Assembly: GCA_003169975.1 (NCBI GenBank)
Contig: PNAA01000024.1
Coordinates: 161,273-225,272, forward strand
DNA from: Spartobacteria bacterium
GTDB taxonomy: Bacteria; Verrucomicrobiota; Verrucomicrobiia; Chthoniobacterales; UBA10450
Direction of reading: 5' to 3'
Length of the DNA stretch: 64,000 nt
In this document: one piece after another, positions 39,514 through 49,081 of the stretch
Numbering within the stretch: position 1 is the stretch's first letter
How the letters are laid out: the number at the start of each line of letters is the position of its first letter
Program-made: the position numbers and the translations under genes
The notes under the pieces: generated by a model
Database searches by the model: none
What the model saw: the letters and a program-made list of their open reading frames with translations, nothing else
What the model was told of the DNA's origin: nothing

Positions 39514-39807
39514 ATCCGACGTGCAGTCCACATTTCTGTTCCATGAATCGAGCCGATGGGGATCGAGCGAGATAGACGAAGCCCGAAAGGGTGAGAGTCG
39601 GGACGAACGAATGGAGCCCGCGGTGGTGGCGCGACGTAGACAACGCGAATGCGTTGGGCATAGCCTGAGAATATGGGAAGATTCGAATCAATGGAGCCGA
39701 TGGGAATCAAGCGACATAGACTGATCGAAGATCAGCCCGACAAACTTGCACGGCCGTAGTTTACGTCCCCTTGGGAACTTGCTAGGCTCCCTCCACCGTT
39801 CGCTCTC

Positions 39808-40137
39808 ATGAAAAACCATCGCCTCATCGACGAACGAAGCCTCGCCTTCGATCGCTTGGTTGCCGAGAAGCTGCGTCGCGATCCGACCTTGGTGGAAAAA
39901 GCACGCTCAAACATTTCGCGCTGGCTGCAAACGACCGACCGGCGTGCCGCGGCCGACCTGCTCGAATGGCAACGCTTGCTCGACCAGCCACTGCCGGACC
40001 TTCTCGCGCTCCTCGAATCCGCCGACGAACACGCCACGCGCTTGCGCCAATCGAGTCCATTTTGCGGGATTCTCAGTCCCGCCGAGCGCCTCGCGATCAT
40101 TCGAGAGTTTTACGCGCGTGAATCGGTCGCAGCTTGA
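39808..40137 (+). CDS. Hypothetical protein upstream of a truncated nucleotidyltransferase
   Basis: 109 aa, MKNHRLIDERSLAFDRLVAEKLRRDPTLVEKARSNISRWL to ILSPAERLAIIREFYARESVAA. It is helical and charged with no recognised catalytic motif. It overlaps the next gene by 20 nt, the arrangement seen for two-gene units in which a small helical protein precedes a DUF6036-type nucleotidyltransferase. A role as its antitoxin or partner is plausible but not shown. Confidence 0.65.
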   Translation: MKNHRLIDERSLAFDRLVAEKLRRDPTLVEKARSNISRWLQTTDRRAAADLLEWQRLLDQPLPDLLALLESADEHATRLRQSSPFCGILSPAERLAIIREFYARESVAA

Positions 40138-40411
40138 GCATATCATCCGCGCGGCCGCCGGTAACACCGACGCTACCGACATTGTCGTCGTCGGCAGTCA
40201 GGCGATTCTCGGCACCTTCCCCGAGGCACCGGCCGAGCTGCTCATCTCGATCGAGGCCGATGTTTTCCCCCGGGATCGTCCGCACGATTCGATCCTTATC
40301 GATGGCGCCATCGGCGAACGCTCCCTCTTCTGCGCCATCCGGCGAATCGTGATAGCCGCAAAACCTGATCTAAGAATGCGTTTAACGAAATTTACGAGCA
40401 TATGGACGTAG
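40118..40411 (+). pseudogene. Truncated DUF6036-type nucleotidyltransferase
   Basis: GTG start, VNRSQLEHIIRAAAGNTDATDIVVVGSQAILGTFPEAP, then a D-x-D-like acidic region (SIEADVFPRD) and LIDGAIGERS. The family normally continues for 60-100 more residues. Here it changes at about 40330 into unrelated sequence and stops at 40411, just inside the SIR2 gene. This marks the left edge of the inserted SIR2-HerA segment. Confidence 0.7.
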
Positions 40412-41592
40412 TAAAAGAAATCAGAGAGCTAAAAAACCAGTTGGCTTACTCAAAAAATATCGGCTTCTTCTTTGGCGCGGGGACATCGTCTGCGTTGAAA
40501 ATTCCGAATATTGACATGCTCACTACCGGGATCGAGACCGCCCTCAAGAACGATCACAAAAAGCACTTTCAGATTATCCGGGATAGTCTCAAAGCGGCCG
40601 GAATTCCTGCTGGAAGAAGCGTCAATATTGAGGACATATTAAACCAGGTTCGCAGAATCAGAGAAATTACAAACGACAAGGCGGAACAGGATTTTATTAA
40701 GGTGACAGGCGAAGCCGCGAAGAACTTGGACAAGGAAATCTGCAATCAGATTTACGCCATCATTAGCGACAGTGAAGCGAAAGCCGACCTCGCAAATTCA
40801 AAGAAGTTTTTTGCGTGGCTTAACATCTTGAACAGAGATTACTCGAAAGAGGTGTTCACGACAAACTACGACTTAATAATCGAGAAGGCGTTAGAGCAGA
40901 GTCAGATTCCTTACTTTGACGGCTTTGTTGGGGCCTATGAGCCATTTTTCTGGCAGGAAAGTGTCGAATTATCGCCTGGGAAGGATGACCTGACGCGGAA
41001 TTGGATTCGCTTGTGGAAAATTCACGGTTCGCTGAATTGGTTTTGGAAAGAAGATCCGGCTGACAAATCGCAGCGAATTATCCGAGTCGGCAAATTTGAT
41101 AAAGCGGGTGCGACCGACAAGGAGCTGGTGATTTATCCCTCAAAAGAAAAATACGACTCTTCGCGTAAGCAGCCATTCATTGCGTATTTCGATAGACTGA
41201 AGAGTTTCCTCTTGAGTGGTGAATTGCTCTTTGTGTTCACGGGCTATTCGTTCTCGGACCAACACATTAACGAAATTATATTCAACTGCCTTCGACAGAA
41301 TACCCGACTGTTCTGCATTGTGCTTTGCTTCAGCGATGCGCAAGTGGAATCTCTCCATAAGTTGGCTTCCTCCTACCTGAACTTCAACGTATTCGGTCCG
41401 AAAAAGGCGATAGTGAACGGGGCCTTAAGTGACTGGACGTTTGACAAGGCAGATGTCAAGGACACCGAAAAATACAGTCAATACTGGGATGAAGGAAAGG
41501 CGGAATTAAGATTGGGGGACTTTAACCAGTTGGTGGAATTCCTCATTGCTTACTCAGGCAAGACGCAATTGCTGGACGCCTCAAAGAAATGA
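40402..41592 (+). CDS. SIR2-family NADase of a SIR2-HerA antiphage system
   Basis: 396 aa. SIR2 signatures: GAGTS at residues 25-29 (FFFGAGTSSALKIP), FTTNYD near 152-157, catalytic His in KIHGSLNW at about 208, and GYSFSDQHIN near 281. In defence SIR2 proteins this domain hydrolyses NAD+ to abort infection. The stop overlaps the HerA start by 4 nt (ATGA), so the two are co-translated. The segment is much AT-richer than the core genes, which suggests horizontal transfer. Confidence 0.9.
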   Translation: MDVVKEIRELKNQLAYSKNIGFFFGAGTSSALKIPNIDMLTTGIETALKNDHKKHFQIIRDSLKAAGIPAGRSVNIEDILNQVRRIREITNDKAEQDFIKVTGEAAKNLDKEICNQIYAIISDSEAKADLANSKKFFAWLNILNRDYSKEVFTTNYDLIIEKALEQSQIPYFDGFVGAYEPFFWQESVELSPGKDDLTRNWIRLWKIHGSLNWFWKEDPADKSQRIIRVGKFDKAGATDKELVIYPSKEKYDSSRKQPFIAYFDRLKSFLLSGELLFVFTGYSFSDQHINEIIFNCLRQNTRLFCIVLCFSDAQVESLHKLASSYLNFNVFGPKKAIVNGALSDWTFDKADVKDTEKYSQYWDEGKAELRLGDFNQLVEFLIAYSGKTQLLDASKK

Positions 41593-43355
41593 CAGACGAA
41601 GCGACCTACCTGGGCAAAGTCATCAGGGTCGACTCTGGCTCCGTTGAGGTAGAGGTATCGGATGAAATTCCCTCGGCTGCCCCGATCATAAACGGGCGAC
41701 TATACAAGATCGGCCAGATCGGAACGTTCGTTAAACTGCCAATCGGGAACTTCACGCTATTTGGTATCGTTTCCTCCGTCAGCAATGCACCGAGTAAGGT
41801 TGAGGAAACGCAGGCGCGATATAATTTCGGCTCGCGGTTCCTGACAATCCAGCTCGTCGGTGAAAAGATCGGGGACGATCCGTTTGAGAAGGGCGTCGGC
41901 ACCTATCCAACGATCAACGATGAGGTTCATCTCGTGATCGAAAGCGATCTTCGGCAGATTTACGGTGATCGGGACGCCGGTTCAATCGAGATCGGAAAGC
42001 ACTCATCATCGGAGGATTTGAGCGTCTACGTTGACCTTCATAAGCTGGTGCTAAGGCACTGCGCAATTCTCGGCTCAACGGGTAGCGGTAAATCAAACAC
42101 AACCGTGAGTGTGTTGAAGGCCATTCTAAACGATTACGCGGGTTCGCGGGTGGTTTTGGTCGATCCACACGGCGAATATAGTTCGGCGTTCCCGGACGCG
42201 AATGTTCTGAAGATCAACGACAAGAAGAATCCTCTCTACATCCCGTTCTGGCTGATGACCTTCGAGGAATTGGCGTATTTTTTGGTGGGCGCGACCCTGA
42301 AGGACGAGCAGACACCGCAGTATAGGAAATTCCGGGAAATGATTGTCGAGCGAAAGCAGAAGAATCACGACAAATTAAAGGGCGGAACGGTGGACGTTAA
42401 TTTGGTTACGGGCGATTCTCCGATTCCGTTCAACGTCCGAGAACTCTGGCATCATCTTTATTGGTGGCTGAACGCTTCGTTCAAAGAAGCGTCTTCGGAG
42501 AAACAGACTGAGGCAAACGCTTGCGTGGAGGGCAAAGGAGATTTTGAAAAGTTGGTGCCGCCGACGTTCAAGGCTTATGCGATGGGCAGTATAGCCCCAT
42601 TTAAGTCTAAGCACCAAGACATGTATGCGTACGAGAAAAAGCTCATTTCGCGATTGCGTGATTCGCGATACGATTTTTTATTCAATCCGGGAGAATACAA
42701 GGATGAGAAATCCAAACTCGATCTACACGATTTGCTCAATTCGTGGATTGGAGGTGAAAAGCAACTCACGATTCTTGATTTGAACGGGGTGCCTCCCGAA
42801 GTTTTGGACATTACGGTGGGACTTATTACCAGATTCATCTACGACAGTATGTTCTGGGGCAGAAACGAGAGCTACACCGGAAAGAACCGGCCGATACTTC
42901 TGGCGTACGAAGAAGCACATTCTTATTTAAGCAAGAGCGAAACGAACCGCTACTCTAAGTATGCGGTGGAACAAGTTTTCAAAGAAGGGAGAAAGTTTGG
43001 CGTCGGCGCGATGGTGATCTCTCAGAGACCTTCGGAGATTTCGGAAACGATATTGGCGCAGGTTGGAACGTACGTCGCTCTACGTTTGACGAACGCAGGC
43101 GATCAAGGAATCGTGAAATCTTCAGCACCAGACAATTTGATTAGTCTGATCGATCTCTTGCCATCGCTGCGGACTGGCGAAGCAATAATTGTCGGCGAAG
43201 CAATTAAAATACCCTCAAGAGTTCGGATCAAGCTGAACAACCCGCGTCCGACGAGTGATGATCCGAAGTTGATAGCGGGCTGGAGTAAGAAACACGTTTT
43301 GAAAGCGGACAACTATAAGAAAGTTGTCACGGCGATTCGTGAACAAAAGATATAA
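41589..43355 (+). CDS. HerA-type ATPase of a SIR2-HerA antiphage system
   Basis: 588 aa. An N-terminal HAS-barrel (TYLGKVIRVDSGSVEVEV) is followed by the Walker A loop GSTGSGKS at residues 162-169 and the Walker B strand PILLAYEEAH near 435-444. The C-terminal part has QVFKEGRKFGVGAMVISQRPSEIS, the usual HerA/FtsK-fold sensor region, and TNAGDQGIV. HerA forms a hexamer that assembles with SIR2 and is required for defence in described systems. It lies between the SIR2 and KTSC genes in one apparent operon. Confidence 0.92.
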   Translation: MTDEATYLGKVIRVDSGSVEVEVSDEIPSAAPIINGRLYKIGQIGTFVKLPIGNFTLFGIVSSVSNAPSKVEETQARYNFGSRFLTIQLVGEKIGDDPFEKGVGTYPTINDEVHLVIESDLRQIYGDRDAGSIEIGKHSSSEDLSVYVDLHKLVLRHCAILGSTGSGKSNTTVSVLKAILNDYAGSRVVLVDPHGEYSSAFPDANVLKINDKKNPLYIPFWLMTFEELAYFLVGATLKDEQTPQYRKFREMIVERKQKNHDKLKGGTVDVNLVTGDSPIPFNVRELWHHLYWWLNASFKEASSEKQTEANACVEGKGDFEKLVPPTFKAYAMGSIAPFKSKHQDMYAYEKKLISRLRDSRYDFLFNPGEYKDEKSKLDLHDLLNSWIGGEKQLTILDLNGVPPEVLDITVGLITRFIYDSMFWGRNESYTGKNRPILLAYEEAHSYLSKSETNRYSKYAVEQVFKEGRKFGVGAMVISQRPSEISETILAQVGTYVALRLTNAGDQGIVKSSAPDNLISLIDLLPSLRTGEAIIVGEAIKIPSRVRIKLNNPRPTSDDPKLIAGWSKKHVLKADNYKKVVTAIREQKI

Positions 43356-43364
43356 CTAAGCAAT

Positions 43365-43580
43365 TTGGACAGAAGAGCGATCAACTCAAGTATGTTAGCC
43401 AGTATCGGTTACGATCCGAGTGTTGGGACGTTAGAAGTCGAATTCAAGAGCGGAGGTGCGGTGTGGCAATACTTTGATGTTCCCGAGCATCTTTGGCACG
43501 AGTTCGACAATGCGGAGTCACATGGGAAATTCTTTCTTGCGAACATCAAGACGCATTTCCGCGAAAACCGAGTTAGTTAG
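43365..43580 (+). CDS. KTSC-domain protein, third gene of the SIR2-HerA operon
   Basis: 71 aa from a TTG at 43365, which keeps the N-terminal part of the domain; an ATG at 43392 would cut it. The sequence RRAINSSMLASIGYDPSVGTLEVEFKSGGAVWQYFDVPEHLWHEFDNAESHGKFFLANIK matches the KTSC domain (PF13619), a small beta-rich fold of unknown function. It starts 9 nt after herA, shares its low GC and is the last gene before the IS3 remnant. Confidence 0.75.
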   Translation: MDRRAINSSMLASIGYDPSVGTLEVEFKSGGAVWQYFDVPEHLWHEFDNAESHGKFFLANIKTHFRENRVS

Positions 43581-43775
43581 ACAAGAGAGATGGAGATAGG
43601 GATGATAAAAGGGAATGGTAAAAAGGAATGGGGCCTGATCTTCACTTTACACTTAAGATCGAGCACTCGTTAGGGCGAATCGTTCAAAGGTCAGGATCGG
43701 GGTCAGAGGATCGAAAGAAGGAAAGGGGTCAGAGTGGGGTTGCATTGTTTTCGCGGACAGTAAGGAAGGGATAAT
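43581..43775. other. Intergenic region between KTSC gene and IS3 remnant
   Basis: No gene seen. It contains one CCTAACGA octamer (43667-43674, reverse) and two GGGGTCAGAG copies similar to the terminal GGGGTCAG of the RAYT elements. It ends with the likely IS3 terminus near TTTTCGCGGACAGTAAGG. Confidence 0.4.
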
Positions 43776-44606
43776 TTAGTTCAGTTTGGATTCAAAGGTG
43801 ATGGGGCTGAGGTAGTCAAGACTGGAGTGCAGTCTGGTGCGGTTGTAAAAGGTTTCGATGTAATCGAAGATGGCGGTGCGAGCCTCGGCGCGGGTGGCGA
43901 AGCGGTGGTGATAGACCAGCTCGTATTTGAGGGTGCTCCAGAAGGACTCGATGAAGGCGTTGTCGTAGCAGTTGCCTGGACGACTCATGGAAGCGACCAG
44001 GCCGTGCTGAGCCAGAAGGTGCCGATAAGCCGCACTGGCAAACTGGCTTCCCCGATCGGAGTGGAGGATGAGAGAACGAGCGGGCCGGCGTTGGCTTAAG
44101 GCCATGCGCAGGGCGGCGCTGACCAGGGGAGCATCGAGGATGGGACTCATGGCCCAGCCGATGACGCGGCGGCTAAAGACATCAAGGACGGCGACGAGAT
44201 ACAACCAGCCTTGGCCGGTGAGCACGCCGGTGGCATCACTGACCCAGAGTTGATCGGGCCGGTGGATGGCGAGGTCTCGCACCCGATTGGGCGCGATCGG
44301 CCCACCGTGGCGGCTGTCGGTCGTGGCGTGTCGATCCTTGGAGCGCTGGCGGGCAAAGAGCCGCTCTGAACGCATGAGCCGGGCAATACGATTGCGTCGT
44401 CCCGGACAACCCAAGGCATGAGCCAAGCGGGGACTGGCGTAGGTCTGACGACTGCGGGCAAACTCCTCCCGGATGCGGGCGCGCAGGAAGGTGTTCTCGA
44501 GCTGGCGCGAACCGGGTTGGCGCCGCCTCTCTTTCCAGTCGTAATACCCGCTGCGCGAGACGAGAAGGGCCTCGCACAACCAGGCTACCTTATATTGGCC
44601 GCTCAT
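43776..44606 (-). CDS. IS3-family transposase OrfB, OrfA missing
   Basis: 276 aa. HTH_21 region LCEALLVSRSGYYDW, then the rve integrase core with DDE residues in LWVSDATGVLT, LILHSDRGSQFAS and NAFIESFWSTLKYE. IS3 elements need OrfA and a frameshift to make OrfAB. No OrfA lies upstream. The frame stays open leftward (in sense) into the terminal repeat of the adjacent RAYT element, which appears to have landed between OrfA and OrfB. The element is therefore probably immobile. Confidence 0.88.
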   Translation of the reverse strand: MSGQYKVAWLCEALLVSRSGYYDWKERRRQPGSRQLENTFLRARIREEFARSRQTYASPRLAHALGCPGRRNRIARLMRSERLFARQRSKDRHATTDSRHGGPIAPNRVRDLAIHRPDQLWVSDATGVLTGQGWLYLVAVLDVFSRRVIGWAMSPILDAPLVSAALRMALSQRRPARSLILHSDRGSQFASAAYRHLLAQHGLVASMSRPGNCYDNAFIESFWSTLKYELVYHHRFATRAEARTAIFDYIETFYNRTRLHSSLDYLSPITFESKLN

Positions 44607-44623: not shown

Positions 44624-45686
44624 GGGTCAGTCCTTTTTTCTTGTATTTGTCATTTCTAAGCCTCAGAGAGGAGCCCGATGGCGAGGAAAGTGCGGGTGGA
44701 GTTCGAGGGTGCGATTTACCACGTGATGTGTCGTGGCGACCGGCGAGAAAATATCTTCGAGGATGATGCGGATCGCGCGCGTTTCCTGGAAACCTTGGCG
44801 GAGGCCTGCCAACGGACGGGGTGGAGAATCCATGCCTATGTCTTGATGAGCAATCATTACCATTGGTTGCTGGAGACGCCGCAGGCGAACCTGGTGGCTG
44901 GGATGCGATGGTTTCAGAGTTGTTTTACGGTCCGCTATAATGTCCGGCACCGAAAGGCAGGACATTTGTTCCAGGGGCGTTACAAGGCGGTCTTGGTGGA
45001 CGCTGAGGCGGGCGAATATTTTGCGGCGGCGGCCGACTACATTCATCTCAATCCCGCGCGCGCCGGTCTGCTCGGGAAAAGAGATGCCTTGGCGAATTAC
45101 CGTTGGAGCAGTCTGCCATGTTATTTGGCGTCGGCGCGCCAGCGACCTGGATGGCTGGAGGTGTCGCGGGTGCTGGGGGCACTGGGCTGGCGAGATCGAG
45201 CCAGGGACCGCAGGGCCTACGGGGAGAGACCGGAGGAACGAGCCCGGGAAGGCCTCGGCGAGGAAGCGCTGAGGGAACTGCGGCGCGGCTGGGTTTTTGG
45301 TGGCGAAGCGTTCCGCGATCGGGTGCTGGATTGGATGGAAAAAAACCGCGCGGGCCAAGGGCGGAAGGTGCGGCGGGAGGAAACCGACGATAATCACGGA
45401 GAGCGGCAGGCGGAAAGGATTATCAGGGAAATGCTGGAGGCGTTTGGTCTGGAGGAGGCGCAGCTTCTGGGGGCGCGAAAAGGCGACTGGCGCAAACGGG
45501 TGATCGGCCAACGCGTGCGCCAAGAGACCAGCGTGAGCCTGCGCTGGCTCGGGGCGCGGCTCAAGATGGGCAGCGAAGGACACGTGAGCCGGATCACGGG
45601 CAACCTGGCAGATCTTGCCGATCACCCGGGGCGACGGTCGTTCGAAAGAGCGCTTCAGCGTAATGCAAGAAAAAAGGACTGACCCC
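44624..45686 (+). mobile_element. RAYT element 1 with terminal inverted repeats
   Basis: The left end GGGTCAGTCCTTTTTTCTTG(T)ATT and right end AATG(C)AAGAAAAAAGGACTGACC form inverted repeats matching at 23 of 25 positions. They enclose the RAYT gene almost exactly; its stop lies inside the right repeat. A related left end without its gene is at 46534-46571. Confidence 0.72.
44678..45682 (+). CDS. REP-associated tyrosine transposase (RAYT) 1
   Basis: 334 aa, with GAGAGGAGCCCG ahead of the ATG. The Y1 (HUH) transposase domain shows FEGAIYHVMCRGDRRENIF, the metal-binding NHYHWLLETP, and GHLFQGRYKAVLVD before the tyrosine-containing helix, followed by ADYIHLNPARAG. Such enzymes cut and move REP/REPIN single strands. 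A C-terminal basic region with a chromosomal-DnaA-like helix-turn-helix (VSLRWLGARLKMGSEGHVSR) probably binds the repeat. Confidence 0.9.
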   Translation: MARKVRVEFEGAIYHVMCRGDRRENIFEDDADRARFLETLAEACQRTGWRIHAYVLMSNHYHWLLETPQANLVAGMRWFQSCFTVRYNVRHRKAGHLFQGRYKAVLVDAEAGEYFAAAADYIHLNPARAGLLGKRDALANYRWSSLPCYLASARQRPGWLEVSRVLGALGWRDRARDRRAYGERPEERAREGLGEEALRELRRGWVFGGEAFRDRVLDWMEKNRAGQGRKVRREETDDNHGERQAERIIREMLEAFGLEEAQLLGARKGDWRKRVIGQRVRQETSVSLRWLGARLKMGSEGHVSRITGNLADLADHPGRRSFERALQRNARKKD

Positions 45687-45796
45687 TAATCACTCGACTT
45701 CTTTCCTTCCGAATTGATGCAGGCGCTAATCGACGAAGCCCATGGTCGTGAGGATCAAAATAGATGGCATTAGGTTCGGAGGATCCCTTCAGGCGC

Positions 45797-45833
45797 AAAA
45801 AAAGAGGCAGAGCCAAGGGCCCTTGGCTCTGCC
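45797..45833 (-). terminator. Palindromic intrinsic terminator
   Basis: A perfect 28-bp palindrome with half-site GGCAGAGCCAAGGG is flanked by AAAAAAA, which gives a T-run on the minus strand. It lies 32 nt after the minus-strand gene ending at 45866. The region from 45687 to 45796 holds nothing else I can name. Confidence 0.82.
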
Positions 45834-45865
45834 CGGTATACCTTTGTAGTTAAGTTATCGCGTTC

Positions 45866-46306
45866 CTAATTTAGCGGAAGCGATTTTCGAGTGCTCTGTC
45901 GGGAATGACGACCTAAAGCGTATCCCACGACAGATGTTATTACTGAACCCAGTACCATCACGAGTGACGTGATGTTGAGCGGCTGTCCATTCGAGATGGG
46001 AGATGAGATGAATATCCAGATCTCCCACATTGTCAGAGCTAAGATGGCGAACGTAGCGATGACCGCTACTACGCCCATGATTACTTTCATCGCGACTCTG
46101 AAGCATGCGTTGATACACCGTTCCCGGTTTTCCATGCTCCGTGCCGAACTCTCGGTAATTTTCTCCTTTGCTTGAGAAACCTTTCGCTTGAGAGCGAGCC
46201 CGTCTAGCGGTGCTAGATGATTTGGGATATATGTCGTTCCTGGCACATTCGGACGACCCCAGTCTTTCTTCAATAATCCTAAGAGAGAATGGAGCCGCCG
46301 TTTCAT
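45866..46306 (-). CDS. Small two-helix membrane protein
   Basis: 146 aa with GAGGAAG upstream of the ATG at 46306. Residues 1-70 are charged. Two hydrophobic segments follow: VIMGVVAVIATFAILALTMW and ITSLVMVLGSVITSVVGYALG. The tail is basic (GRHSRQSTRKS). I recognise no family. An overlapping 233-codon ORF in another frame shares the region; its first 80 codons (MANQKMRKTAYDAPKSKETAAVTGEE) could be an upstream coding part joined by a frameshift. Its position between two mobile elements suggests cargo. Confidence 0.6.
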   Translation of the reverse strand: MKRRLHSLLGLLKKDWGRPNVPGTTYIPNHLAPLDGLALKRKVSQAKEKITESSARSMENRERCINACFRVAMKVIMGVVAVIATFAILALTMWEIWIFISSPISNGQPLNITSLVMVLGSVITSVVGYALGRHSRQSTRKSLPLN

Positions 46307-46580
46307 CGGAGATTACTTCCTCTCCTGTAACGGCGGCCGTTTCTTTACTCTTGGGTGCATCATAGGCGGTTTTCCTCATTTTTTGGTTAGCCATAAAGCT
46401 CGACCCTCCCGACCGCTTCGCACATTCGCGGGCGTTCTGATTTGATCCGTTCATGGCACCTTGATTGTCATTTTGGCGCGCTGGCGCTGTCAACTGACAT
46501 TTTTGATACGTTGGCGATAATGATAGTGAATAGGGGTCAGTCCTTTTGTCTTGCATTTGTCATTTCTAACGGGAGATTTA
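46307..46580. other. Region between membrane protein gene and RAYT element 2
   Basis: No firm gene. It carries an isolated RAYT-1-type end (GGGGTCAGTCCTTTTGTCTT from 46534, then GCATTTGTCATTTCTAAC), the same sequence that borders RAYT element 1 at 44624-44659. This suggests a lost or excised copy of that element. Confidence 0.5.
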
Positions 46581-47598
46581 GGGGTCGGTTGTTGATAATG
46601 GCTACTTCCGACCGGATTTCCTCTGGCGATAGAGCAAGTGATTCAGGTAGCCCCGACTGCCCATCCCCAGGCGTTCTGCGATCCAACCCACCGTCATCGT
46701 AGTCTCCGCCCGCAGCCGGGCCGCTAACGCCACCTTTGCCGGATCCCCCTTGGGTCGCGTCCTGAGAGCAGCCTCGTTCCATCGCCGCCGTTTCAATTCC
46801 TCCGCGATGATTTGTTCCGCCATCGCTTCCGCCGTCTGCGCCCGCTCTTCCCCGTAATGCTCTGCCCCGATCGTCTCGCGCATTTGCGCCAGCAATTCCT
46901 GCCGAAATGTTTCGTCGCCCAGACACCAGCCGCGCCGTACCAGGTTGAACTCCGCGTCGTCTTCCTCGCGTCGCGCTTCCAACGCCCGCTCGAGCTGGCG
47001 CCGCCCCGCCGGGCTGTCTTTTGGGATGCCCCATTCACCAAGTAATCGGTCCACCCGCAGCCAGGCCGGGCGTTTCGACGGCGCCAGCAGATACGCTGGC
47101 CAACTGCTCCAGCCAAAACGCTGCAAGGGCTGGTCCACCGGCAACATTCCGCGTCCGCGGACCCGGGCGGGATTGAGATGGACGTAATCGCATACGCTCC
47201 TGAGATAGCCCTTGCCCGAGCCATCGACGATCAGCGATTTGTAGCGACCGGCGAACAGGTGACCAGACAGTTTGTGCCGCCGGTTGAAGCGGCTGGTATA
47301 AGTGCCCAGAAACCATTTCATCCCGGCGACCAGATTCGGTCGGGGCGTCTCGACCACCAGATGAAAATGATTCGGCATGAGGACATAGGCGTGAACATGC
47401 CAGCCGGTCTTGACGCACACCTCGGCCAGGGTCTCGACAAAGCTCCGGCGGTCCACATCGTCGAGGAAGATCGGTTCCCGCCGGTCGCCCCGATTCATGG
47501 CGTGGTAGATCGCGCCGGGATACTCGACTCTCAGCTTGCGGGCCACGAGGCGACAATGACTTGCGCTTCCTCGCATGTCAATATCAAGAACCGACCCC
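46581..47598 (-). mobile_element. RAYT element 2 with terminal inverted repeats
   Basis: The left end GGGGTCGGTTGTTGATAAT and right end ATATCAAGAACCGACCCC are inverted repeats (17 of 19 positions in the compared stretch). They enclose the second RAYT gene, and the right end interrupts an IS630-type transposase gene at 47598. The GGGGTC(A/G)G core is shared with element 1, although the two element ends differ. Confidence 0.72.
46602..47576 (-). CDS. REP-associated tyrosine transposase (RAYT) 2
   Basis: About 324 aa from the ATG at 47576; a GTG at 47546 (VARKLRVEYPG) matches the usual RAYT start even better. HUH domain: YPGAIYHAMNRGDRREPIF, metal site NHFHLVVETPRPNLVAGMKW, GHLFAGRYKSLIVD and VHLNPARVRG. 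A C-terminal region with a helix-turn-helix (MTVGWIAERLGMGSRGYLNHLL) may bind DNA. It is clearly paralogous to, but different from, the RAYT at 44678. Confidence 0.9.
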   Translation of the reverse strand: MRGSASHCRLVARKLRVEYPGAIYHAMNRGDRREPIFLDDVDRRSFVETLAEVCVKTGWHVHAYVLMPNHFHLVVETPRPNLVAGMKWFLGTYTSRFNRRHKLSGHLFAGRYKSLIVDGSGKGYLRSVCDYVHLNPARVRGRGMLPVDQPLQRFGWSSWPAYLLAPSKRPAWLRVDRLLGEWGIPKDSPAGRRQLERALEARREEDDAEFNLVRRGWCLGDETFRQELLAQMRETIGAEHYGEERAQTAEAMAEQIIAEELKRRRWNEAALRTRPKGDPAKVALAARLRAETTMTVGWIAERLGMGSRGYLNHLLYRQRKSGRK

Positions 47599-47736
47599 TT
47601 CACCAAAAGACTCGCCCGCCGCCAGACGCAAAATGGCTTCGGCCCGGCGGGCATCTTCCAATCTCCCGGCGCGACCGCGCATGCGCTTGGTTAACTCACG
47701 ACGTTCCGGTGGAGAGACTGGCGTATTAAGAGGCAT
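47599..47736 (-). pseudogene. IS630-type transposase N-terminal fragment
   Basis: From the ATG at 47736: MPLNTPVSPPERRELTKRMR then RLEDARRAEAILRLAAGES. This is the N-terminal helix-turn-helix stretch common in IS630-family transposases. After about 46 codons it runs straight into the terminal repeat of RAYT element 2. The rest of the transposase is not found on the other side. Confidence 0.62.
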
Positions 47737-48214: not shown

Positions 48215-49081
48215 ATGTCGGACAATCCCACATTTGGAGATAGTGAGTTCTTCGATGACGATGGAAAGATGCCTTGGGAAGCCGCAGCGATAGATGCAAT
48301 CCGGAATGCAACATCCGGAATCAAATTCGACGAGGTGCGAGCATCAATCTACTTGATGTCCGCAGTGGATTATCGGTGGGATGCCGTTCGAGAGGAATTC
48401 TCAGATCAGTATAGTTTAAGGGATCGTTTGATCGAAATCGGCGAGGATGAGTGGAGCAACCATGCTCCGATCGGCTGGGATGGCGAGGTTTACAAGCCAA
48501 TGGTCGAAGGCTACGTCGAAGACGCTTTAGACGATCTCGATATCGAAGGCTTTTTTGCTCGTATCGCGGAGCCAGAGCAGGGAGACCAACTTGTGGCAGC
48601 CAGTGAATTGCTCACCCCAGGGGCGGGACTGATTCTCCAGATCGATCTCGGAGAAATCAACACCGAGCTTGTTCGATATCTGGCGGCACACCCCGAAAAA
48701 ATGCGGGACCTGGATCCTCGGAAATTCGAGGAACTGGTTGCTGAGCTATTCAGAGATAAGGGATATGACGTTGAACTGACGCCTCGTTCAAAAGACGGAG
48801 GTTTGGACATTCGGGTTTTCCACAAGTCAGCGTTAGGTCGATTCCTGACACTGGTCGAATGCAAGCGTTATTCTGAGCGTGAACGGGTCGGGGTCTCAAT
48901 CGTAAGAGGGCTTTATGGAGTGGTTAATATGCGGAACGCGACAAGCGGTTTGATCGCCACCACTTCGTTCTTTACTAAGGGGGCGAAATCCGAGCAGCAG
49001 CAGGTCAAGGAGCGCCTTCACTTAGCAGATTTCGAGGAATTAAAGGGGTGGCTGGTGAGTTATCGAGGCGCGCGTCGTTAA
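48215..49081 (+). CDS. Mrr-like restriction endonuclease domain protein
   Basis: 288 aa. An N-terminal acidic domain of about 165 residues of unknown type is followed by a PD-(D/E)xK nuclease of the Mrr_cat family: LDPRKFEELVAELFRDKGYD, the metal site SKDGGLDIRVF, then LVECKRY (E-x-K) and VRGLYGVVNMRNATSGLIATTSFFTKGA. Mrr-type enzymes cleave modified DNA. It has no methylase partner nearby, consistent with a type IV or stand-alone defence role. Confidence 0.82.
   Translation: MSDNPTFGDSEFFDDDGKMPWEAAAIDAIRNATSGIKFDEVRASIYLMSAVDYRWDAVREEFSDQYSLRDRLIEIGEDEWSNHAPIGWDGEVYKPMVEGYVEDALDDLDIEGFFARIAEPEQGDQLVAASELLTPGAGLILQIDLGEINTELVRYLAAHPEKMRDLDPRKFEELVAELFRDKGYDVELTPRSKDGGLDIRVFHKSALGRFLTLVECKRYSERERVGVSIVRGLYGVVNMRNATSGLIATTSFFTKGAKSEQQQVKERLHLADFEELKGWLVSYRGARR

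Follow-up and report, generated by a model that had tools for sequence, protein, structure and literature searches.

A KTSC-domain gene as the constant third member of one SIR2-HerA clade, with a probable role at the HerA ring

Analysis of a 64,000-nucleotide stretch of a Spartobacteria bacterium genome (the window) revealed a SIR2 gene, a HerA gene and a KTSC-domain gene in immediate succession. The three genes probably form an anti-phage operon of a KTSC-bearing SIR2-HerA clade, in which the KTSC protein would serve the HerA ring as a docking or clamp subunit. KTSC is a genuine component of the system and not a neighbour, because it is linked to HerA in 59/59 same-clade loci among the matches listed, is naturally fused to HerA and is present in a solved complex.

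Gene content and setting of the locus

The SIR2 and HerA genes overlap by 4 nt (41589-41592), and the KTSC gene follows HerA after a gap of 9 nt (43356-43364) (Table 1). It lies in the HerA reading frame, separated from it by a TAA stop and three codons, and its TTG start aligns with the Met1 position of annotated homologues. The coordinates, the overlap, the gap and the 71-aa length of KTSC given in a first-pass annotation proved exact on re-reading. Its description of the trio as low-GC DNA unlike the flanks was also correct, with GC contents of 0.45 (SIR2), 0.49 (HerA) and 0.48 (KTSC) versus 0.60 in the flanks. A probable nucleotidyltransferase-like remnant breaks off at the left start of the low-GC block. 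Its translated fragment matched no Pfam family, and a search of the window for the rest of the truncated gene, insensitive because the query was a distant paralogue, gave no match. The IS3-type transposase to the right probably belongs to the mobile surroundings, outside the SIR2-HerA-KTSC system.

Table 1. Features at the SIR2-HerA-KTSC locus (window positions)
Feature	Position	Strand	Basis
SIR2-family NADase-like effector, 396 aa	40402..41592	+	PDLC04093, SIR2_2, motifs
HerA-type DNA-translocase ATPase, 588 aa	41589..43355	+	PDLC04105, DUF87, HerA_C, motifs
KTSC-domain protein, 71 aa, TTG start	43365..43580	+	PF13619 and AlphaFold2 model
Low-GC block enclosing all three genes	40250..43750	none	~60% GC around
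Nucleotidyltransferase-like gene, probable 5' remnant	40119..40400	+	read by eye
IS3-type transposase with rve integrase core, to the right of the trio	43776..44606	-	Pfam scan

Several further elements were seen in the window. A 35-nt repeat is present in three imperfect copies, spaced 64 and 80 nt apart, at 39543-39721. Two IS200-type (Y1_Tnp) transposase genes lie at 44678-45682 (+) and 46602-47654 (-), and 24- to 36-nt terminal-like repeats at these genes are common to positions 44624, 45662 and 46525-46569 (region 44624-47654). A possible further defence gene, 4.6 kb downstream at 48215-49081, encodes an Mrr-type restriction endonuclease (Mrr_cat, 97.6 bits).

The SIR2 protein matched the PADLOC model PDLC04093 (440 bits) and Pfam SIR2_2 (75.5 bits), and its catalytic-type motifs FTTNYD (aa 152-157) and WKIHGSL (H208) are intact. 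Motifs of this type are invariant across the trio alignment and present in all scanned SIR2 proteins but one. The HerA protein matched PDLC04105 (518 bits), Pfam DUF87 (128 bits) and HerA_C. Its Walker A (GSTGSGKS, 42072-42095) and Walker B (LLAYEEAH, 42897-42920) motifs are intact. A SIR2 gene with intact motifs thus adjoins a HerA gene with both Walker motifs, as in a SIR2-HerA system. The NCBIfam profiles SIR2_antiphage (NF042942) and HerA_antiphage_2 (NF042944) gave 75.4 and 308.8 bits versus curated cut-offs of 500 and 850, respectively, which places the locus outside these named equivalog families. KTSC is an orphan domain, known mainly at the ends of lysyl-tRNA synthetases. The window KTSC protein matched PF13619 with 75.8 bits (cut-off, 25), and PADLOC-DB returned no model for it. 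The PADLOC and Pfam scores bear out the family calls SIR2, HerA and KTSC made in the first-pass annotation.

Linkage of KTSC to one HerA clade

A HerA alignment was used to scan 84,980 species genomes and, in addition, viral contigs. The scan yielded at least 159 loci, which are the best 80 per scan and so a sample, and profiles built from the trios separated the surveyed HerA loci sharply. Only loci with room, that is, with enough DNA downstream of HerA, were used for linkage counts. Among the matches listed, KTSC was directly downstream of or fused to HerA in 59/59 distinct same-clade loci with room and was found after or within HerA in 0/116 other HerA loci with room, 51 of them SIR2 bearing. 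The search for a downstream PF13619 gene beyond chance, which the first-pass annotation had proposed, therefore turned out positive. Fisher-type p-values for this linkage are descriptive only, because the loci share ancestry. Among the matches listed, every HerA scoring above 600 bits with the trio profile was followed by KTSC, adjoining or fused, with one exception: the sole KTSC-less clade member (L133), whose contig stops 2 nt past HerA. In these matches, SIR2 stood in front of HerA wherever the contig extended far enough; it was not detected at one locus (L046) because the contig begins there. The KTSC start lay between -23 and +42 nt of the HerA stop (median, 6) among the matches listed.

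A KTSC like that of the window was found in 35/388 genomes of the phylum, and this rarity, set against the 59/59 same-clade loci, puts the linkage above chance. A phmmer search of the 388 genomes revealed only one HerA near that of the window (genome G056), and KTSC comes after it as well; SIR2-HerA loci of the phylum that are less closely related have no KTSC after HerA. The other KTSC genes of the phylum were rejected as parts of HerA systems: among the KTSC loci fetched, a HerA gene within 1.5 kb was present only in two trios. The non-trio KTSC loci that were read mostly look like secreted solo proteins.

The expectation that KTSC stands beside other SIR2-HerA pairs held within one HerA clade (59/59) and failed for the other types (0/51 SIR2-HerA loci with room), both among the matches listed. 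KTSC as a part of all SIR2-HerA systems was therefore rejected, and KTSC marks one type. In the tree of the surveyed loci, among the matches listed, the KTSC-positive HerA proteins form one clade (support, 0.999) that includes the window HerA. According to record titles, this clade ranges over Pseudomonadota, Bacteroidota, Verrucomicrobiota, Spirochaetota, Actinomycetota, Eremiobacterota, Omnitrophota, Gemmatimonadota, Patescibacteria and Halobacteria, with one haloarchaeon among the 59 same-clade loci of the matches listed. Pairwise distances of KTSC followed those of HerA (rho 0.58; reached by 0/500 permutations), and distances of KTSC, HerA and SIR2 were intercorrelated (rho 0.53 to 0.80; 53 loci).

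Plasmid loci were fetched by HerA match alone. The closest plasmid HerA genes (69% identical) came from Citrobacter, Enterobacter, Klebsiella and Aeromonas, and more distant ones from Rhizobium, Pseudoalteromonas, E. coli, Paraburkholderia, Methylocystis, Sphingomonas and the haloarchaeon Natrinema. An annotated KTSC gene lies directly after HerA in 9/9 annotated plasmid records fetched. In answer to the suggested search for the trio as one mobile block, the SIR2-HerA-KTSC block was seen on unrelated plasmids, prophage-like contigs and chromosomes. The idea of a three-gene operon is strengthened by these results: KTSC follows every clade HerA examined, the trio recurs as a block, and three fusions exist.

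A constant fourth gene was rejected, since no flanking family beyond KTSC recurred in more than 4/46 trio loci among the matches listed. Four of the 46 loci (L045, L056, L063 and L068) share a family of ~343 aa that begins 0 to 6 nt after KTSC. This family has a PD-(D/E)xK-like motif (TGDIV...IECKFDKS) and is a candidate fourth, nuclease-like gene; the one member scanned gave no Pfam or PADLOC match. On a Natrinema zhouii plasmid (L041, 5759-6851), the trio KTSC overlaps an ADP-ribosylglycohydrolase gene, which is followed by a second piece of the same family. The product is a possible ADP-ribose-removing partner of the sirtuin.

KTSC genes were also observed near other genes. On a Halorubrum plasmid (L237, 681-3713), KTSC overlaps the end of a ThiF-family E1 gene by 4 nt, and an E2/UBC gene precedes; the same pairing of KTSC and ThiF is listed for Halorarius too. 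KTSC thereby belongs to a further operon of conflict type. On an Agrobacterium pusense plasmid (L240, 2940-3713), KTSC directly follows a gene for a 186-aa ATP-binding protein, and the stretch shown has no full HerA or SIR2 gene. The 186-aa protein may be a shortened HerA, and the locus perhaps a decayed trio. On a Haloferax plasmid (L236, 1-3713), a KTSC gene is preceded at a distance of 1.4 kb by genes for NurA and a HerA-like ATPase, a layout that loosely resembles the HerA-KTSC-nuclease loci of PMC9503650.

KTSC in HerA fusions and solved complexes

HerA and KTSC form one open frame at two loci (L050 and L126), which are natural in-frame fusions. A third fusion is the protein of 8wiv_A (696 aa), whose residues 628-696 make up a KTSC domain (E 7.6e-28). 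In the HerA tree the three fusions stand apart from one another, each surrounded by relatives with split genes, and 8wiv nests among members of the KTSC clade in the trio tree. Among PDB entries, this structure matches the window HerA best, with 414 bits along the full length of the protein; its partner 8w9l likewise gives the best match for the window SIR2 (148 bits). The entries 8WIV, 8WJ3, 8WK0, 8WLD, 8WOC, 8WOD and 8WOF, together with the SIR2 entry 8W9L, are those that we take to be from Liao et al. 2024 (doi 10.1093/nar/gkae750), on Paenibacillus sp. 453MF. For the 8WIV protein, a unique extension at the C terminus reportedly stabilises the split spiral that HerA forms alone.

The AlphaFold2 model of the window KTSC (pLDDT 96.6) matched the KTSC proteins 4rgi (Z 15.6) and 7x8c (Z 15.2). 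It also matched residues 614-696 of HerA in the complexes 8wld (Z 12.6, 1.1 A, 49% identity) and 8wof and in 8wiv and 8wj3; apart from these 8W.. HerA chains and KTSC proteins, no structural match stood out (next, Z 4.0). The free proteins 7X8C and 4RGI have the same fold as the window KTSC (Z ~15, 39% identity) but were solved alone and not within a SIR2-HerA complex. As 8wld is titled a SIR2/HerA antiphage complex, the match to it indicates that a solved complex physically contains an ordered KTSC. The 8wld chains matching KTSC have 613 to 673 modelled residues, and the matched 8woc and 8wod chains have 354 to 560 and no KTSC match. A KTSC that is modelled in some HerA chains and missing from others looks like a mobile or state-dependent dock. 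In a predicted HerA-KTSC fusion monomer, linker residues 610-612 had pLDDT values below 50, and the placement of KTSC from this model was discarded because of the floppy linker.

Comparison with known systems identified the 8WIV-type SIR2/HerA complex as the nearest solved relative of both HerA and SIR2. The window HerA lies in the KTSC clade, and a KTSC gene whose model matches 8wld 614-696 stands directly downstream; KTSC is fused to the HerA C terminus in the 8WIV type and encoded by a separate gene in the window. Judged from sequence, the window locus is the split-gene form of this already solved type, because the closest solved HerA (8WIV; complex 8WLD) bears a C-terminal KTSC. The E. coli SIR2-HerA or Nezha system (8J4U, 8SUB and 8UAE) has the same SIR2 effector and HerA ATPase, but its HerA is far more distant (8j4u, 105 bits versus 414 for 8wiv) and, unlike the window, it gave no KTSC match for the HerA chain in a PDB sequence search; the window locus does not belong to this type. 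DUF4297-HerA (8XAU-8XAY; PMC11291478) shares the HerA motor and activates its effector by co-assembly, but it has a nuclease effector instead of SIR2, and its HerA chain has no KTSC match. HerA is coupled with KTSC in a conflict system, as in the window, in the HerA-KTSC-endoDNase loci mentioned as unpublished observations in 2022 (PMC9503650); an endoDNase takes the sirtuin's place there, and SIR2-HerA-KTSC is not described as one system. The first-pass annotation knew of no KTSC protein as a component of SIR2-HerA, but the domain is already present in the solved SIR2/HerA entries 8WIV and 8WLD and in those endoDNase loci.

Role of KTSC in the system

In SIR2-HerA and DUF4297-HerA systems, the HerA hexamer stacks on the effector and activates it (PMC12198126, PMC11291478). 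By analogy with these relatives, the window SIR2 would be the NAD+-destroying effector and HerA the hexameric ATPase that binds and activates it, and we infer anti-phage activity of the locus. KTSC, presumably made from the same transcript as a separate 71-aa subunit, would dock on the HerA ring, probably on the neighbouring protomer. As a removable clamp it would set the split or closed state of the ring, through which assembly of HerA with SIR2 and activation of SIR2 may be controlled. KTSC most likely tunes assembly and activation of the HerA ring. Placed at the same end of HerA, on a flexible linker or as a free subunit, it would most simply do a job equivalent to that of the DUF4297-HerA hook. 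This hook reaches from the C terminus of one HerA subunit to the next and reinforces the ring; where it is missing at the ring seam, the ring is split and poorly active (PMC11291478). It counts against a clamp that a C-terminal hook of this kind was not observed in the Sir2-HerA system (PMC12198126); the E. coli type was solved without KTSC, so a clamp is unneeded for the general mechanism. By constant linkage alone, the roles of structural part, sensor and inhibitor are not told apart; among them, that of a structural HerA subunit is the best supported.

A sensor role, in which KTSC would bind DNA, RNA or a phage-derived ligand and signal via HerA to SIR2, is possible, though on the unlikely side. 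KTSC was called DNA binding in PMC9503650, which notes the HerA-KTSC-endoDNase loci, and was described as an RNA-binding domain of lysyl-tRNA synthetase in PMC7824862. It also adjoins unrelated conflict-type genes, e.g., E2/ThiF in haloarchaea, and invariant residues on a small fold would fit a ligand site. However, the most conserved residues of the trio KTSCs recur in other KTSCs and may therefore be fold residues. The 59 trio KTSCs among the matches listed are, moreover, acidic (mean net charge, -2.8; 97% not above 0). Such a charge is more in keeping with docking on a protein than with contact to DNA and argues weakly against plain DNA binding.

A broader reading, which we put forward tentatively and consider unlikely, is that KTSC is a general plug-in of conflict systems that acts as a switch or trigger of large rings. 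In SIR2-HerA it would be an obligate third subunit whose docking or release times NAD destruction. This reading takes in the KTSC-type SIR2-HerA, HerA with other nucleases and the haloarchaeal E2-ThiF-KTSC loci.

It is quite improbable that KTSC is an inhibitor or antitoxin that silences SIR2 or HerA before infection. A small gene at the end of an operon-like trio whose NADase is probably toxic would suit such a role, as would the constant linkage. In three members, however, KTSC is fused in cis to HerA, as is more to be expected of a permanent subunit than of an antitoxin that can be titrated, and this makes an antitoxin less likely. The order effector-motor-KTSC, with KTSC last, is unlike that of many antitoxins, and other SIR2-HerA types do without KTSC. 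An unrelated gene placed downstream by chance, for which the four KTSC copies in this genome and the occurrence of KTSC in other contexts might speak, is hardly credible and was rejected on the 59/59 linkage among the matches listed, the three fusions and the KTSC in the solved SIR2/HerA complex.

The KTSC domain in a deposited SIR2/HerA structure and the HerA-KTSC-endoDNase loci (PMC9503650) were already known. In the literature searched, no paper was found that splits SIR2-HerA into KTSC-bearing and KTSC-free types or names KTSC as a constant third gene; as far as this search shows, it is new that SIR2-HerA has at least two types, one of them a clade defined by KTSC as a constant third part. 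SIR2-HerA is usually regarded as comprising two genes. Should KTSC be a required subunit, detection models lack one component, and clones of the KTSC-bearing type that hold only two genes may be incomplete. The trio gives an orphan domain a likely role and provides a testable handle on what switches the HerA ring and SIR2 from silent to active.
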